Assembly: GCA_903789595.1 (NCBI GenBank)
Contig: CAIFEZ010000007.1
Span: forward strand, 1-53,422
Direction: 5' to 3'
Source of the DNA: an uncultured eubacterium 1-6
Lineage (GTDB): Bacteria > Bacillota > Clostridia > Lachnospirales > Lachnospiraceae
DNA length: 53,422 nt
Positions 20,908 to 53,422 of the stretch are shown one piece after another. A program made the translations under genes and the position numbers. Positions within the stretch are counted from its first letter, which is position 1, and each line of letters opens with the position of its first letter. The notes under the pieces were generated by a model that was given only the letters and a program-made list of their open reading frames with translations, did not search any database and had not been told where the DNA came from.

Positions 20908-21090
20908 GCTGTATCATTATCGAAAAATGGATCTGGATAGTTTCGATATGACACGAAATGCATGTGAAAATTTTTAATATACTAATGAATGCATCTGGAT
21001 GCTTTTAATATATCACAAAATGGAACAGGATGGTTTCGATAAATCACGAAATGCGTTTGGACGTATTCCATATGATACATGAATGTCTTT
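20908..21090 (+). repeat. Six degenerate 31-33-bp tandem repeats in the amylase leader
   Basis: Units with the approximate pattern ATATCACGAAATG, GATCTGGAT and GGTTTCGAT recur six times with strong decay. The last unit reaches the region just before the amylase start. There is no ORF of note. This accounts for the gap between the small gene and the amylase. Confidence 0.7.
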
Positions 21091-21133
21091 CAAGGTAATG
21101 AAAGAAAATATACAGGAAAAGGGGAAATGCATC

Positions 21134-22852
21134 ATGGCATGGTATGAGGAAGCTGTTTTTTACCATATTTATCCTTTGGGACTTACCGGCGCGCCGAAGC
21201 AGAATGACTACGGCGAACCGGTGCATCGCATGAAGAAGCTGATTCCGTGGATCGATCATATCAGGGAGATCGGGTGCAATGCGCTGTATATCGGACCGCT
21301 TTTTGAATCCGCGAGTCACGGATATGACACCACCGATTACCGGAAGCTGGACAGCAGACTGGGAGACAACGAGGATCTGAAGGATTTCGTGGCAAAGTGC
21401 CACGAGGCAGGGATCCGGGTGATTTTCGACGGGGTTTTCAACCATACGGGAAGAGATTTTTTCGCGTTCCGGGATCTTCAGAAAAACCGCGAGAGCTCGC
21501 CATACCGTGACTGGTACTGCAATGTGAATTTCGGCGGGAACAACGAGTACAATGACGGTTTTTCCTATGAGAACTGGGGCGGGTATAATCTGCTGGTTAA
21601 GCTGAACCAGAGAAATCCGGAGGTCCAGAATTACATCTGTGACACGATCCGGTTCTGGGTGAAGGAGTTTGATGTGGACGGCATCCGGCTGGATGCGGCG
21701 GATGTTCTGGACTTTGATTTTATGAAGTGTCTGCGCAGGACCGCCAATGAGGTGAAGAAGGATTTCTGGCTGATGGGCGAGGTCATTCACGGCGACTACA
21801 TCCGGTGGTCCAATCCGGAAATGCTTCACGCCGTAACGAACTACAATTTGCACAAGGCGCTTTATTCCGGGCACAATGAGCACAACTATTTTGAGATCGC
21901 GCACACGGTTCGCAGGCTGTACGAGATGGGCGGCAACCGCCCTGACGGGCTCGGCCTTTATAATTTTGTGGACAACCACGATGTGGAGCGGATCTATACC
22001 AGGCTGAACAACAAGGCGCATATGTTCCCGGTACATGTCCTGCTTTATACACTCCCGGGTGTGCCGTCTATCTATTATGGATCGGAGTTCGGCATAGAGG
22101 GCCGTAAGGAGTGGGGAAGTGACGCTTCGCTTCGCCCGGAGCTGAATCTCGACGATTACCGAGGCGCGGTCAGAACCAACCCGATCACGAGAGAGATCGC
22201 CGCGCTCGGGCGGATCCGGCAGTCGGAGAAGGCGCTTTCCTACGGCGCGTATAAGGAGCTTCTTCTCACGAACCGGCAGTACGCGTTTGCCAGAGAGTGG
22301 AATGGAGAGAACATTCTTGTAACGGTCAATAACGATGATGGCGATTTCACTATGACGGTGTCCGCCGAGGGCGGGAAACAATTCGTCGGAGGCCTCAGCG
22401 GGACAAAGGCAGCTGCGCAGAACGGACAGCTGACGGTCACGGTTAAGGCAAATTCCGGCGAGATCTGGATTCCCGTCGCGGAAGGGAAAACGCTGCCGGA
22501 GAACATGGAGGACAGTGCGCCTGTTTCTTGTGAAAAGGAATCTGAGAAGAAACATGTGGAGCGGACTGCGCGGGAGGATCGAACCGGAGATGCGGGGCAG
22601 ACTGCGTCGATTGATTCTGCGGCACAGCAGGCGGATAAGCGGGAGCCGGAGGAGAGCCTTGAGGAGAAGACTGGAAGGTTGCTCAGAGAGGCGACCGGGA
22701 AAACATATGAGGAGATGACGGTCGAGGAGCTGCAGGCGGCGATTCTGGCAAAGCTTGCTGCAAACGGTCCTGTCACGGATCAGATGAAGCGCGACGTCTC
22801 GGAAAACATCTGGCATGATTCTCTGGTGAACTGGGTGAAGAGCTTCCGATAA
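21134..22852 (+). CDS. Cytosolic GH13 alpha-amylase-like enzyme
   Basis: 572 residues from the ATG at 21134; AAGGGG lies upstream, and an earlier in-frame ATG at 21083 lies in repeat DNA. No signal peptide. The GH13 barrel has all conserved regions: DGVFNHTG, DGIRLDAADV (nucleophile Asp), GEVIHGDY (acid/base Glu) and NFVDNHDVE (transition-state Asp). It probably cleaves alpha-1,4 glucan or maltodextrin inside the cell. After the C-terminal beta domain (to about residue 455) there is an unusual charged tail of about 115 residues, rich in Glu, Lys, Arg and Ala. It includes a helical stretch (EEMTVEELQAAILAKL) not seen in standard family members. The substrate cannot be fixed from sequence. Confidence 0.88.
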   Translation: MAWYEEAVFYHIYPLGLTGAPKQNDYGEPVHRMKKLIPWIDHIREIGCNALYIGPLFESASHGYDTTDYRKLDSRLGDNEDLKDFVAKCHEAGIRVIFDGVFNHTGRDFFAFRDLQKNRESSPYRDWYCNVNFGGNNEYNDGFSYENWGGYNLLVKLNQRNPEVQNYICDTIRFWVKEFDVDGIRLDAADVLDFDFMKCLRRTANEVKKDFWLMGEVIHGDYIRWSNPEMLHAVTNYNLHKALYSGHNEHNYFEIAHTVRRLYEMGGNRPDGLGLYNFVDNHDVERIYTRLNNKAHMFPVHVLLYTLPGVPSIYYGSEFGIEGRKEWGSDASLRPELNLDDYRGAVRTNPITREIAALGRIRQSEKALSYGAYKELLLTNRQYAFAREWNGENILVTVNNDDGDFTMTVSAEGGKQFVGGLSGTKAAAQNGQLTVTVKANSGEIWIPVAEGKTLPENMEDSAPVSCEKESEKKHVERTAREDRTGDAGQTASIDSAAQQADKREPEESLEEKTGRLLREATGKTYEEMTVEELQAAILAKLAANGPVTDQMKRDVSENIWHDSLVNWVKSFR

Positions 22853-22955
22853 AAAAGATATGAGAGGCCAGGCTGCTAAGAAAGATATAAGATGACAAGC
22901 TGCCAAGAAGCATGAGATGGCAGGCTGCCAAGAAACATATGAGATGCTGGCTGGC
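22851..22955 (+). repeat. Four 25-27-bp tandem repeats right after the amylase stop
   Basis: Units of the type AAGAAAGATATGAGATG...GGCTGCC start at 22851, 22878, 22905 and 22930. The first begins within the TAA stop codon itself. Confidence 0.8.
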
Positions 22956-22994
22956 TGGTGCGTCAGATGGTGCGTCAGCCTGCTTCGAGAAGGC

Positions 22995-23023
22995 AAAAAT
23001 CCGGCCGACAGGCCGGATTTTTT
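22995..23023 (+). terminator. Terminator of the amylase gene
   Basis: A perfect 12-bp stem (AAAAATCCGGCC with GGCCGGATTTTT), loop GACA, with the T run inside and after the arm. The A-tract on the other side makes it potentially bidirectional. Confidence 0.9.
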
Positions 23024-23037
23024 GCTGTGGGAAAGTT

Positions 23038-23434
23038 TACCATCAAGATTTCATTTCCGGCAGAGGGATGGTAGATCGGAGGGACAAGTACCATCTGAAA
23101 TGGCAACGGGTGGTGTAGATGGTAATTGTCTGGAGAGGTTACCATCAAGATCTCATTTCCGGCAGAAGGATGGTAAGAGTGGAGGTGGAAGTACCATCGG
23201 AACCGGCAGCTGGAAGGATAAGATGGTAATTGTCTGGAGAGTTTACCATCAAGATTTCATTTCCGGCAGAGGGATGGTAAAAGCGGAGGGACAAGTACCA
23301 TCAGTAGCGGCAGCGGGAAGCCATGATGGTAATTGTCTGGAGACGTTACCATCAAGATTACATTTCTGGCAGCGGGATGGTAAGAGCGGAGGGACAAGTA
23401 CCATTAGAAATGGAAGCAAGAAGCCTGGATGGTA
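23038..23434. repeat. Palindrome array 1: eight TACCATC/GATGGTA units
   Basis: Eight units, each TACCATC, 22 bp (one has 23), GATGGTA. TACCATC starts are at 23038, 23089, 23140, 23192, 23244, 23296, 23347 and 23399 (the last reads TACCATT). Spacers between units are 15 or 16 bp. The steps are 51 or 52 bp throughout. Interiors alternate: odd units share AAGATTTCATTTCCGGCAG-type DNA and even units vary. Spacers alternate too (CGGAGGGACAAG and ATTGTCTGGAGAG types), giving a super-unit of about 103 bp repeated four times. Every 7-mer can pair with either neighbour, so two alternative fold registers exist. It lies between the amylase terminator and the P-type ATPase promoter and codes for no credible protein. 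Confidence 0.95.
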
Positions 23435-23452
23435 AATAAGCTTCCCGTAGCA

Positions 23453-23481
23453 TTGACAAACACAGGATCAGGGTGTATTTT
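23453..23481 (+). promoter_or_regulatory. Promoter of the metal ATPase gene
   Basis: TTGACA, 17 bp, TATTTT, located just before the SmtB-type operator. Confidence 0.65.
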
Positions 23482-23488
23482 TAAATTA

Positions 23489-23510
23489 CATATGAACAAA
23501 TGAGCATATG
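23489..23510 (+). promoter_or_regulatory. Candidate SmtB/ArsR-type operator
   Basis: Imperfect inverted repeat: CATATGAACA, two bases (AA), then TGAGCATATG; 8 of 10 positions are symmetric. The arms resemble the ATATGAACA-type half sites known for SmtB, CzrA and NmtR. It covers the expected transcription start of the ATPase gene, so a bound repressor would block initiation and metal would release it. Confidence 0.6.
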
Positions 23511-23596: not shown

Positions 23597-26125
23597 ATGA
23601 GCGACATGGACGACATCAGGAAGAAGGGTGCGGAGCTGATTCGTGACGCGGAGGAAGCGTCAAAGGAGGTGCAGGCCGCGGAGAGGGAGCAGAAGGAGAG
23701 AGAGGAACGTCTTGCGGAAGCGCGGGCGGAGGCTCTGAAGAATTCTGAGACCAGGAAATTCGACGCGGCGCGGTTGTTCCGTGAGGAAGAAGCCCGGAGA
23801 CGGGAGCACGCTAGACAGGAACAGACAGAACAGTTGCAGCCGGGGCAGAAGCAGTTTGCGCAGGAAGCTTCCGAGCAGGGACGGTCAGAACAGTTGCAGC
23901 CGGAGCAGAAGGAATTTGCGCAGGAAGCTTCCGAGCAGGGACGGTCAGAACAGTTGCAGCCGGAGCAGGAGAAGTTTGCGCAGGAAGCTTCTGAACAGAA
24001 ACAGTCTGAATTGAAACGGCCCGAGTATCTGACACCCGGACAGGAGCATACAGAGGAGGGCGTAGAGGAAAGCGAAGAGGAAAGCGAAGAGGAAAGCGAA
24101 AAGGAAGGTGTAGAGGAAAGCAAAGAGAGAGGCGGAAAGAAAGGCGCAGAGAAAGGCGAAAAGGAAGGTGCAGAGGAAAGCGAAAAGGAAGGCGCAGAGG
24201 AAAGTGAAGAGGAAGAAGATGACGATGATGACGACGAGATGGAGCCGAAGCAGAAACTGATCCAGATTCTTGTCTCGACTGGGCTTCTGATCGGCGCGTA
24301 CCTGATTAACCGCGCGCTCCCGGGTCTGGAAATGTGGCAGCGGCTTCTGATCTATCTGGTGCCTTATCTGGCGGCGGGATTTGACGTTCTTCGTGAGGCC
24401 GGCGAAGGGATTGCTCACGGAGAAGTGTTTGACGAGTCATTTCTGATGAGCATAGCGACCATCGGAGCGCTGCTGATCGGGTTTGTACCGGGCGGTGAGG
24501 AGATGTTCCCGGAAGCGGTATTCGTGATGCTGTTTTTCCAGGTGGGAGAGCTGTTCGAGGGAATTGCCGAGGGCAACAGCAGGAGGGCAATATCCCAGCT
24601 GCTTGACATCCGTCCGGATACCGCGAACCTGGAGCGTGACGGCGAGGTGAAGGTGGTCAGCCCGGAGGAAGTGAAGGTCGGCGATATCCTTGTGGTGAAG
24701 CCGGGAGAGAAGGTTCCGATGGACGGCATCGTCGTGGAAGGAAATTCCAGTCTGGATACTGTGGCGCTCACCGGTGAGAGCGTGCCGAGAGACGTAAGAG
24801 AGGGCGACATGATTCTCTCCGGATGTGTGAACCAGAACGGACTTCTCCGGATGAAGGTGGAAAAGGAATTCGGGGAGTCGACGGCCTCGAAGATTCTGGA
24901 GCTTGTCGAAAATGCCGGAAGCAAAAAGTCGAGGAGCGAAAAGTTCATTTCAAAATTCGCGAAGGTCTACACGCCGATCGTTGTGGCAGCCGCGGCTGTT
25001 CTGGCATTCCTGCCGCCGCTTCTCTCAGGTGATTTTGTCGGAAATTTTGCCACCTGGCTGCTCCGGGCGCTGACCTTCCTGATCGTATCCTGCCCGTGCG
25101 CGCTGGTGGTTTCGGTGCCGCTCGCGTTTTTTGGAGGAATCGGTGCCGCGTCCAAGATCGGTGTCCTGATCAAGGGCTCCGGTTACATGGATGCTCTCTC
25201 CAGGGCGGATACGGTGGTGTTTGATAAGACAGGTACGCTGACAAAGGGTGTATTCGAGGTGACGACGCTCCATCCGGAGTGCATCGAAGCGAAGGAATTG
25301 CTCCATCTGGCGGCCCATGTAGAGAGATATTCGAACCATCCGATCGCTGTTTCCCTCAGACAGGCATTCGGAAAAGAGGATGACGGATGTGAGGTTGAGA
25401 ACGTGGAAGAAATCGCGGGTCATGGAATCCGCGCTGTCGTAAACGGAAAGACTGTGTGCGTCGGAAATCAGAAGATGATGGAGGACGTCGGCGCAAAGTG
25501 GAGGATCTGCGATGAGCCGGGCACGATCATTCATGTGGCCATTGAGGGAAAATATGTCGGACACATCCATATCAACGACGTTGAAAAACCGGATGCCGCT
25601 GAGGCGGTCGCTTCCCTGAAGGCAGCCGGAATCCGGAAGACGGTGATGCTCACGGGAGACCGAGAGAAGGTCGCGCAAAAGGTGGCCGCGGATCTGGGTC
25701 TGGACGAGTACCGGGCGGAGCTGCTTCCCGCGGACAAGGTATCCGAGGTGGAGAAGCTGATCGATCAGAAGCCGGATGGAACGTCTCTTGTGTTTGTCGG
25801 AGACGGAATCAATGATGCGCCTGTCCTTGCGCGGGCGGATGTCGGCATCGCCATGGGCGCGCTTGGATCGGACGCCGCGATTGAGGCGGCGGATGTCGTG
25901 CTGATGGATGACAAGCCTTCGAAGATCGAGAAGGCGGTCCGGATTTCCAGAAAAACGATCCGGGTTGCGAGACAGAATATCGTGCTGGCCATTGTGATCA
26001 AGGTGGCAATCCTTATTCTGGCTGCCGTCGGCCTTGCGCCGATGTGGCTTGCGGTATTCGGGGATACCGGCGTACTGCTGATCTGTGTTTTGAATTCGAC
26101 GAGAACACTGACTTACAAGGAGTGA
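23597..26125 (+). CDS. P1B-type zinc/cadmium-exporting ATPase with repeat-rich N-terminus
   Basis: 842 residues from the ATG at 23597 (AGGGGG upstream). Core motifs: actuator TGES, metal-site SCPCALV in the membrane, phosphorylation site DKTGTLTKG, HP motif SNHPIA, nucleotide motif GDGINDAP. This set marks a P1B-2-type pump for Zn, Cd or Pb efflux. The first roughly 215 residues are not the usual GMTCxxC metal-binding domain. They are a charged coiled region with three 20-residue repeats (LQPEQKEFAQEASEQ), then a Glu-rich stretch ending in EEEEDDDDDDE, which could bind cations loosely. The SmtB-type repressor gene follows, and an SmtB-like operator precedes it, which supports zinc or cadmium as substrate. 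Confidence 0.92.
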   Translation: MSDMDDIRKKGAELIRDAEEASKEVQAAEREQKEREERLAEARAEALKNSETRKFDAARLFREEEARRREHARQEQTEQLQPGQKQFAQEASEQGRSEQLQPEQKEFAQEASEQGRSEQLQPEQEKFAQEASEQKQSELKRPEYLTPGQEHTEEGVEESEEESEEESEKEGVEESKERGGKKGAEKGEKEGAEESEKEGAEESEEEEDDDDDDEMEPKQKLIQILVSTGLLIGAYLINRALPGLEMWQRLLIYLVPYLAAGFDVLREAGEGIAHGEVFDESFLMSIATIGALLIGFVPGGEEMFPEAVFVMLFFQVGELFEGIAEGNSRRAISQLLDIRPDTANLERDGEVKVVSPEEVKVGDILVVKPGEKVPMDGIVVEGNSSLDTVALTGESVPRDVREGDMILSGCVNQNGLLRMKVEKEFGESTASKILELVENAGSKKSRSEKFISKFAKVYTPIVVAAAAVLAFLPPLLSGDFVGNFATWLLRALTFLIVSCPCALVVSVPLAFFGGIGAASKIGVLIKGSGYMDALSRADTVVFDKTGTLTKGVFEVTTLHPECIEAKELLHLAAHVERYSNHPIAVSLRQAFGKEDDGCEVENVEEIAGHGIRAVVNGKTVCVGNQKMMEDVGAKWRICDEPGTIIHVAIEGKYVGHIHINDVEKPDAAEAVASLKAAGIRKTVMLTGDREKVAQKVAADLGLDEYRAELLPADKVSEVEKLIDQKPDGTSLVFVGDGINDAPVLARADVGIAMGALGSDAAIEAADVVLMDDKPSKIEKAVRISRKTIRVARQNIVLAIVIKVAILILAAVGLAPMWLAVFGDTGVLLICVLNSTRTLTYKE
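23828..24007 (+). repeat. Three in-frame 60-bp repeats in the ATPase gene
   Basis: Units at 23828, 23888 and 23948 encode EQLQPEQKEFAQEASEQGRS-type 20-mers and differ at only a few bases, so they are recent. Shorter Glu/Lys codon repeats follow (24050-24235). Confidence 0.9.
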
Positions 26126-26151: not shown

Positions 26152-26263
26152 ATGATTTAAGAGAATGCGCGAAATGACAGATGATTTAAGAGAATGCGCA
26201 AAATGACAGATGATTTAAGAGAATGCGCAAAATGACAGATTAAGAGAATGCGCAAAATGACAG
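26152..26263 (+). repeat. Four 29-bp tandem repeats upstream of the repressor gene
   Basis: Units at 26152, 26181, 26210 (29 bp each) and 26239 (25 bp, internal deletion). Core: TTTAAGAGAATGCGCAAAA. They fill the gap between the ATPase stop and the ArsR start. Confidence 0.9.
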
Positions 26264-26285: not shown

Positions 26286-26606
26286 ATGGAAGAATATACA
26301 GATCAGGAAAGAAAATGCGGTCTCCCTGATGAGGATGAGATGTTTGATCTGGCCGAGCTGTTCAAGGTTTTCGGCGATTCTACACGGATCAAAATTTTAT
26401 TTGCGCTCTTTGAGACGGAGCGGAGCGTCGGAGAAATTGCCGAGCTTCTGAATATGACACAGTCCGCGGTATCACATCAGCTGAAGATCCTGCGGCAGTC
26501 CAAGCTGGTAGAAGCAAGAAGAGACGGAAAGCAGATTTTTTATTCGCTTGCCGACGAGCATGTGCACACGATCATAAGGGTCGGAAGAGAGCATATCGAG
26601 GAGTAA
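26286..26606 (+). CDS. SmtB/ArsR-family zinc-responsive repressor
   Basis: 106 residues, a typical winged-helix ArsR/SmtB protein. The recognition helix region reads SVGEIAELLNMTQSAVSHQLKILR. The C-terminal alpha-5 segment is DEHVHTIIRVGREHIEE, giving D-x-H-x10-H-x2-E. That matches the alpha-5 zinc ligands of SmtB (Asp, His, His, Glu). No cysteine ELCVCDL-type alpha-3 site is present. Zinc is thus the best guess for the inducer. The ATG follows AAAAAGGA. It probably represses the ATPase through the 23489 operator, and itself if co-transcribed. Its last codons are duplicated downstream (26605-26689). Confidence 0.92.
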   Translation: MEEYTDQERKCGLPDEDEMFDLAELFKVFGDSTRIKILFALFETERSVGEIAELLNMTQSAVSHQLKILRQSKLVEARRDGKQIFYSLADEHVHTIIRVGREHIEE

Positions 26607-26689
26607 GGGTCGGGAGACAGCATATCGAGGAGTAAGAGCCGCAAGAGCATATCGAGAAGTAAGGATCAGGAGGGCGCACATCGAAGAGT
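26576..26689 (+). repeat. 3'-end echoes of the repressor gene, stop codon included
   Basis: Four units of 29, 29, 27 and 29 bp start at 26576, 26605, 26634 and 26661. The first is the real gene end (codons for VGREHIEE and TAA). Each copy keeps CATATCGAGGAGTAAG or a near variant, including the TAA. Confidence 0.92.
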
Positions 26690-26744
26690 AAGAAGATGCG
26701 CGGCACTGCATAGCCCTGCGCAGAAAGAAGATTATACTTGGAAG

Positions 26745-26915: not shown

Positions 26916-26933
26916 TGACTGGTATTAGAAAGC

Positions 26934-27090
26934 ACAAGCGGTGCAGAAAGCGGAGGAAGCGCAAGTAGTGCAGAAAGCGCAGAAAACGCAGGCAGCACAA
27001 GTAGTGCAGAAAACGCAGGCAGCGCAGCAAGCACAAGCGGTGCAGAAAATGCAGGCCGTGCAGAAAGCGCAGGCAGTGCAGCAAGTGTAT
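26934..27090 (+). repeat. Short GCAGAAAGCGCAGGCA-type repeats in the aldolase leader
   Basis: Imperfect units of 12-15 bp (CAGAAAACGCAG, GTGCAGAAAGCG) fill the leader. In one frame (from the GTG at 26941) they read as Gln/Ala/Val/Lys repeats and stay open into the aldolase gene. No ribosome site supports that frame. Confidence 0.75.
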
Positions 27091-45691: not shown

Positions 45692-45765
<74 letters not shown>

Positions 45766-46583: not shown

Positions 46584-46730
46584 ATGATGATTACAGATCG
46601 AATTACATATCGGATTACGGATCAGATTACGGATCAGATCACAGATCGGATTACAGGTAGGATTACGGATCGAATTACGGATCGGATTGCAGATCAGATG
46701 ATGGATAAGGAATGCTTATATGGCGGATGA
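46584..46730 (+). CDS. Possible 48-residue Ile-Thr-Asp-Arg/Gln tetrapeptide-repeat ORF
   Basis: About ten 12-bp units (pattern GGATTACGGATC) encode ITDR, ITDQ and variants in frame, bounded by MM at the start and MMDKECLYGG at the end. Codons vary at silent third positions (ACA/ACG, CGA/CGG), but changes to Tyr, Gly and Ala also occur. The stop codon overlaps the ATG at 46720 of the next frame, as in coupled genes. The ribosome site is weak. It may be real or just a minisatellite. Confidence 0.3.
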   Translation: MMITDRITYRITDQITDQITDRITGRITDRITDRIADQMMDKECLYGG

Positions 46731-53205: not shown

Positions 53206-53422
53206 TACCATCCGTCTTGTAAGAAAATAAAACCTGATGGTAACTTTTCCAGACAAATACCATCGAGACCGGCCGGAAGCGTTACTGATGGTACATTAGC
53301 AGCGCGATTACCATTGAGACAGACCAAAGTCGTTTCTGATGGTACTAGAGCCACCGTGATTACCATCAGGACTGGTCGAAGCCGTTACTGATGGTACATT
53401 AGCAGCGCGATTACCATCGAGA
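53206..53422. repeat. Palindrome array 2: TACCATC/GATGGTA units, cut by window end
   Basis: TACCATC (or TACCATT) starts at 53206, 53258, 53309, 53361 and 53412. GATGGTA starts at 53236, 53287, 53338 and 53390. Interiors are 23, 22, 22 and 22 bp; spacers are 15, 15, 16 and 15 bp; steps are 52, 51, 52 and 51 bp. Arms and spacing match array 1, but interiors (GAGAC...CGTTACT type) and spacers (CATTAGCAGCGCGAT type) are unrelated to it. The array continues past the window edge. Confidence 0.95.

Follow-up and report, generated by a model that had tools for sequence, protein, structure and literature searches.

Opposed 7-bp arms in 52-nt-class tandem repeats of a Lachnospiraceae genome as candidate half-sites for a DNA-binding protein

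What is a strictly ordered array of short palindromes in a gap between two genes of a Lachnospiraceae bacterium, and does it belong to anything already described? The array was found at 23038-23434 of the window (the whole stretch of DNA analysed, 53,422 nucleotides) and consists of eight TACCATC-N22/23-GATGGTA units:

23038..23073, no strand assigned, unit 1, type A, TACCATC-N22-GATGGTA
23089..23124, no strand assigned, unit 2, type B
23140..23175, no strand assigned, unit 3, type A
23192..23228, no strand assigned, unit 4, type B, with a 23-bp interior
23244..23279, no strand assigned, unit 5, type A, interior equal to that of unit 1
23296..23331, no strand assigned, unit 6, type B
23347..23382, no strand assigned, unit 7, type A
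23399..23434, no strand assigned, unit 8, type B, left arm TACCATT

Fifteen of the 16 arms were exact, the sole exception being the single change in unit 8. Interiors measured 22 bp in seven units and 23 bp in one, and the spacers were, in order, 15, 15, 16, 15, 16, 15 and 16 bp. TRF returned a period of 103 with 3.9 copies at 82% matches and a period of 207 with 1.8 copies at 85%, so the A/B super-unit is real. The recount and TRF confirm what a preliminary description of this DNA had recorded (eight ordered units, 7-bp arms, 15/16-bp spacers and A/B alternation), and the fixed spacing that it placed near five helical turns was borne out by the 51-52-bp steps. Exact pairs (N15-30) within the window numbered 10, against 0 in 100 dinucleotide shuffles. 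A second array (53206-53964, hereafter C7b) runs off the window end:

53206..53422, no strand assigned, start of the second array of the family, continuing on the contig to 53964 across a run of N

The window array is flanked by the following features:

21083..22852, + strand, alpha-amylase family (GH13) gene, upstream (PF00128, E 2.6e-55)
22995..23022, + strand, perfect 12-bp inverted repeat AAAAATCCGGCC/GGCCGGATTTTT, terminator-like, in the gap between the amylase gene and the array
23453..23481, + strand, promoter-like TTGACA-17-TATTTT, just 3' of the array and 5' of the ATPase gene (consensus match only)
23597..26125, + strand, P-type ATPase gene, downstream (PF00122, E 4.2e-50, and PF00702; mechanical ORF from 23528)

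For the ATPase we infer the start codon at 23597 and a heavy-metal type. A consensus terminator scanner listed no terminator at 22995..23022, and promoter-like consensus matches numbered 3 in 901 bases against 1.1 expected. With a terminator-like repeat before it and a promoter-like site after it, the window array may lie outside both flanking transcripts. Rfam was searched over the window at gathering threshold; the array had no match, for which reason a known RNA family was rejected, and the sole match was a tRNA at 45692-45765. A mechanical 172-aa frame (22917-23435) spans the window array, and open frames spanning arrays of the family range from 93 to 172 aa, though the 51- and 52-bp steps switch frame between units; a coding repeat was judged unlikely because of these frame shifts.

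Other repeats were noted nearby. A degenerate 25-27-bp tandem repeat (22854-22953) stands right behind the amylase stop codon, and 60-bp (20-aa) and 12-bp repeats (23826-24214) occupy the Glu/Gln-rich N-terminal part of the ATPase gene, a region that is seemingly much shorter in the homologue of genome G014 (L098). An imperfect palindrome, ATATGAACAAATGAGCATATG, lies at 23490-23510, 5' of the ATPase gene; we take it to resemble an ArsR-type operator, and a similar palindrome precedes the G014 homologue. Unrelated tandem repeats are numerous in the window, further short ones being found at 26152-26263 (29 bp), 26575-26693 (29/56 bp), 26927-27085 (9-36 bp) and 46589-46706 (12/36/48 bp). At the locus that corresponds to the window array, the gene ahead of the ATPase in G014 is a hydrogenase (matched by eye), and both the amylase gene and an array are absent.

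Across the genome (3.66 Mb, 66 contigs), 108 exact pairs (N18-28) were counted against 0 for a reversed-pattern control. Ten arrays hold 106 of the 108; the remaining 2 were not located and could be single units or a further array. Together with the 0 of 100 shuffles these counts rule out a chance origin of the window motif. The dispersed repeat family suggested in the preliminary description was thereby supported, and its counter-case, a motif at chance frequency genome-wide, was contradicted. The arrays are:

C7, 23038-23434 and 53206-53964
C10, 16405-17112
C14, 48471-50040 and 54979-55423
C15 end and C41 end, one array split by a contig break, judged from similar interiors
C18, 39175-40181
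C26, 6116-6820
C43, 5951-6810
C47, 7085-7531

The count is ten with C15/C41 joined and eleven if they are separate, and some arrays contain runs of N. Beyond the arrays, stray exact arms occurred at chance level (18 seen, 19.7 expected), and no isolated unit was found in 161.5 kb of stretches picked around arrays. The gene gaps housing the arrays are convergent in six cases of ten, tandem in three and divergent in one, a soft count in that the ORF-rule orientations of C26 and C43 were overridden by eye from translations and C15/C41 was taken as one array. By the same ORF rule, orientations were mixed too around the arrays of the relatives described below (G011, RUG427, UBA1721 and Bacillus). 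Since arrays occupy convergent, tandem and divergent gaps, a terminator array was disfavoured as a general explanation.

Arms, interiors and spacers were compared using a chain finder that tolerates up to two changes per arm and favours 22/23 and 15/16 spacing. Arm identity was 95.7% between chains and 95.5% between array groups, values helped by the finder's tolerance. Taking the better strand for each of 5546 unit pairs, interior identity across array groups (C10, C14, C26, C15/C41 and C7/C18/C43/C47) was 34.3%, where random 22-mers give 31.4%. Interiors of C7, C18, C43 and C47 are related (best pairs 59-82%), and those of C10, C14, C26 and C15/C41 showed no clear sharing with them. Among arms with up to two changes 244 of 282 were exact, and TACCATC/GATGGTA was present in all ten arrays. 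Conservation of the exact arm sequence points to sequence-specific recognition. Slower evolution of the arms between species is not established, because one arm of the orthologous C7b end unit differs between this genome and its sister G011.

Chain counts gave an inner distance of 22 bp in 126 of 136 cases and 23 bp in 10, and an outer distance of 15 bp in 80, 16 bp in 50 and 11 bp in 1 (n = 131), with periods of 51 (143), 52 (100), 53 (8) and 47 bp (1). Distances between exact arms were also taken directly from the stretches of this genome, independently of finder bias. Searching up to 80 bp beyond each of 122 exact TACCATC, we met the first exact GATGGTA at a gap of 22 bp in 97 cases, 23 bp in 9 and 73 bp in 2, and none in 14; an exact GATGGTA stood at +29/+30 for 106 of 118 testable TACCATC, a control offset giving 0. 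After 141 exact GATGGTA, the next exact TACCATC within 80 bp followed at 15 bp in 67 cases, 16 bp in 37, 66-68 bp (one unit further on) in 11 and 3 bp in 1, with none in 25. Chains of RUG427 had inner distances of 21-23 and outer distances of 15-17 bp, and at the Bacillus loci the outer distance was 17 bp in 38 of 38, despite the finder's preference for 15/16. Interiors and spacers drift in sequence and keep their length.

The tandem motif was found in 2 of 61 genomes searched, this one included. The other is G011, of the same genus (contigs of the uncultured Lachnospiraceae MAG hRUG896). None of the 14 other genus genomes, 67-99% complete, carried the motif, which thus occurs in 2 of 16. A tandem-repeat scan of genus loci totalling 221 kb, of which stretches of G012 made up about 161 kb, gave no 52-bp arrays with other arms. 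A GTDB scan returned 30 stretches, of which 23 held arrays, one (L071) held two units and six held no array; these six (L067, L069, L077, L082, L086 and L087) were taken as chance matches. Arrays were located in the MAGs RUG427 and UBA1721 and in Bacillus sp. P14.5, Metabacillus indicus, Bacillus timonensis and Bacillus sp. HNG, and a two-unit case in Tb.RUG.8. The RUG MAGs are presumably of rumen origin, judging by their names. Exact TACCATC pairs numbered 108 in this genome, 13 in G011, 29 in RUG427, 8 in P14.5, 3 in UBA1721, 2 in B. timonensis and 1 each in Tb.RUG.8, M. indicus and HNG. The form TACCCTC-N20..24-GAGGGTA gave 57 exact pairs in M. indicus against 3 for its reversed control, mostly of 21 + 17 geometry among the matches listed, 6 in B. 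timonensis, 2 in HNG and 0 in both P14.5 and this genome; TRCCATC is the half-site form in one relative. The sharing of arms between Bacilli and Clostridia is suggestive, the search itself having selected for these arms. A viral scan for the motif gave three stretches only (contigs L088, L089 and L090), which carry near-identical short TACCATC/GATGGTA clusters with 3-4-bp spacings, a layout unlike that of the 52-bp arrays.

Two sites, C7b and C18, are syntenic with G011. At C7b, six units in G011 stand against at least 12 complete ones in this genome, the first and last being recognisably the same; at C18 the numbers are 2 and at least 17 complete. The C43 site of G011 has no array and is missing about 1.1 kb found in this genome. 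At this one empty site no clean insertion edge or target duplication was seen, and gain in this genome or loss in G011 are equally possible. The G011 contigs end at the C47 site and stop short of the window array's locus. Within arrays, self-identity peaks at shifts near 51, 103, 154, 207, 256 and 310 bp, a pattern suggesting growth through multi-unit duplication.

Subirana and Messeguer have described a class of 52-nt constant-length, variable-sequence repeats to which the arrays belong, and the view in the preliminary description that the layout matches nothing known was wrong (PMC8161180). Repeats of this class were reported in about 30% of Bacillus species among 176 genomes, the hosts being Bacillus, Paenibacillus and a few other Firmicutes, and the unit carries short species-wide signals 'and their reverse' (PMC8161180). 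Their function is unexplained, nucleoid protein binding or a small RNA having been discussed (PMC8161180, IJMS 2021). The literature was searched by motif and by other wording, and among the matches listed the only class papers were PMC8161180, PMC8625621, PMC6749651 and PMC11431837 (an editorial). The class is defined by a unit of 51-53 nt in at least four repeats, at least 60% of them of equal length (+/-1), and the periods of this genome, counted with the chain finder, agree with this. Several same-length families of different sequence occur in the genome (interiors at 34.3% against 31.4%), and TACCATC/GATGGTA in all ten arrays is a species-wide short signal that is reversed within the unit. 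Conservation between relatives is partial, two sites being resized and one lacking its array in G011, and the host is a Firmicute, since the same-genus G011 is a Lachnospiraceae MAG. The 52-nt repeats were reportedly first described in J Bacteriol 2020. In a check of our own, separate from the class definition, 12 of the 26 published consensi (some of them near-copies of one another) had inverted arms scoring at least 6, 17 had any inverted arms and 9 had none (PMC8161180 Table 1); among 200 random circular 52-mers the first two counts were 8 and 52. Inverted arms are a common, not universal, trait of the class.

We tentatively read the arrays, at somewhat less than an even chance, as phased half-sites for a putative DNA-binding protein; a binding-site array was among three readings offered in the preliminary description and emerges as the best of them. 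The window array is one of some ten copies of a 52-bp-class tandem repeat on the chromosome, each unit presenting two opposed copies of the 7-bp half-site TACCATC. A putative protein acting in trans would read the half-sites sequence-specifically, most probably as double-stranded DNA, and the 22-bp and 15/16-bp distances would set protomer-protomer contacts along the array. Same-direction arms recur every 51-52 bp (about five turns), with opposed arm starts 29-30 and 22-23 bp apart; the earlier idea that a bound protein would sit on one face of the DNA suits the former and fails for the latter. Arrays appear to grow or shrink by duplication of whole units or unit groups, and array sites are gained or lost between sister species. 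The purpose may be nucleoid or locus organisation, or the element's own spread.

The half-site reading is supported by arms that are conserved while interiors are near random identity, by rigid 22/23 and 15/16 gaps in the finder-independent test, by stray exact arms at chance level outside arrays, by the M. indicus geometry and, as given below, by the arm-fixed folds and the lack of a G-U preference in RUG427. It is weakened by the restriction of the motif to 2 of the 16 genomes of the genus, a pattern that a dispensable or selfish element would explain no less well than a host chromosome system, and by RNA-seq reads reported for the 52-nt repeats of B. coagulans (PMC8625621), which indicate transcription and make an RNA role possible. 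The A/G arm association, the G-U lean in this genome, the folding of C47 and C10 and the arm difference in the C7b end unit weaken it further. A broader conjecture, which we hold to be doubtful, is a putative Firmicute protein acting on phased opposed T[AG]CC[AC]TC half-sites in a dispersed centromere-like or chromosome-architectural role, with a recognition sequence common to Bacilli and Clostridia and other species having moved to other half-sites.

Compared with full shuffles, folding is strong on both strands (z -5.94 and -6.01), which, like the reported B. coagulans transcription (PMC8625621), favours arrays that act as RNA, transcribed as tandem hairpins (a small RNA, sponge or 3'-end element). 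The fold excess is due to the arms, however: when the arms were fixed (nine array pieces, up to 18 arms each, 60 shuffles, dinucleotides not kept), 15 of the 18 array-strand tests showed no better folding of native interiors (z -1.07 or higher). Only C47 on the + strand (z -5.0) and C10 (z -1.6 and -2.1) departed from this, so that excess folding beyond the arms was confined to 2 of nine arrays. Two mutually exclusive fold registers had been proposed in the preliminary description, with covariation as a check; both are geometrically possible, but the pairing evidence is weak and favours neither clearly. Association at the A/G position of the arms, calculated with units taken as independent and shared descent uncorrected, was significant for the inner register of RUG427 (phi 0.25, p 0.024) and not for its outer register (0.18, p 0.19) or for this genome (inner phi 0.25, p 0.11; outer 0.34, p 0.08). 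Double arm changes in RUG427 were equally common in the inner (23, all Watson-Crick) and outer register (23, 22 of them Watson-Crick), as were one-sided changes (74 and 74); of these, G-U and mismatch numbered 36 and 38 in the inner register and 35 and 39 in the outer, with no G-U preference. One-sided changes on the + strand of this genome leaned to G-U (inner 21 to 14, outer 20 to 10), and a compensated pair, TGCCATC with GATGGCA, was found. The data give no clear sign of selection on pairing, and neither register is set apart by them. RNA hairpins rarely need rigid loop lengths, and those of the arrays are rigid. Given also the terminator-like repeat before the window array, the promoter-like site after it and the Rfam result, an RNA role appears improbable, and a conserved folded RNA is counter-indicated in most arrays.

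A selfish non-autonomous repeat, its arms recognised in trans by a transposase or recombinase and its arrays being copying by-products with no host function, would suit the patchy occurrence, the C43 site gained or lost between sister species and the inverted conserved arms with a variable interior, which resemble REPINs (PMC3116915). The recombinase search covered the Y1_Tnp family, and no array lay within the 5-5.5 kb taken around each of this genome's two matches; Y1_Tnp is present in 12 of the 16 genomes of the genus, and 10 of these 12 lack the tandem motif. At most 2 of 108 exact pairs are single, whereas most REPINs are single (PMC3116915). The lack of a target duplication or clean insertion edge at the C43 empty site and the differing layout of the three viral stretches also tell against such a repeat, which we consider unlikely, though it is the main and a serious contender. 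Neutral growth by slippage or unequal crossing-over, merely promoted by the palindromes, would account for the higher-order periods near 103, 154, 207 and 310 bp and for large size differences at orthologous sites such as C18. Slippage alone explains neither one 7-mer kept across arrays with near-random interiors nor a unit length that stays at 51-53 bp in distant Firmicutes (PMC8161180); neutral repeats are already disfavoured, and we give them little chance.

Among known systems, REPINs/RAYTs likewise have two inverted conserved arms, a variable interior, intergenic dispersal and sometimes tandem clusters, and a transposase (RAYT) is proposed to serve REPINs in trans (PMC3116915). The arms described here differ in being 7 bp long and in having no palindrome of their own, and no more than 2 of 108 exact pairs fall outside arrays. 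REPIN identity was rejected because no array stands beside the Y1 matches and 106 of 108 exact pairs are in arrays, not single. CRISPR arrays share the strict alternation of constant and variable segments; here, unlike in CRISPR, interiors recur within their own arrays, the constant parts are just 7 bp and there are about ten loci. CRISPR identity was rejected on layout, since interiors repeat within an array.

The 52-nt class shares with the present arrays the 51-53-nt unit, several sequence families of one length per genome, dispersal and a copy number that varies between strains. The arrays differ from it in the Lachnospiraceae genus that hosts them and in the one dominant arm, TACCATC, of all ten, and both half-site distances are spelled out here, unlike in the class paper. 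Family 7_52_18 of Metabacillus (Bacillus) indicus, with TACCCTC/GAGGGTA arms, a mostly 21-bp interior, a 17-bp spacer and a 52-bp unit, appears from its sequence to be the closest relative in arms and geometry among those compared; its arm is one base off TACCATC and its interiors are unrelated by eye. The Lachnospiraceae members, the half-site anatomy, the array turnover between sister species and the evidence against a conserved folded RNA are new here. The 52-nt repeats are a published puzzle, of constant length, changing sequence and unexplained function. This genome is a clean case of it: a single half-site runs through all ten arrays, and in a sister species individual arrays are shared, resized or missing. 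Near-identical arms occur in M. indicus, a culturable Bacillus relative, and the 7-bp half-site is a defined bait.
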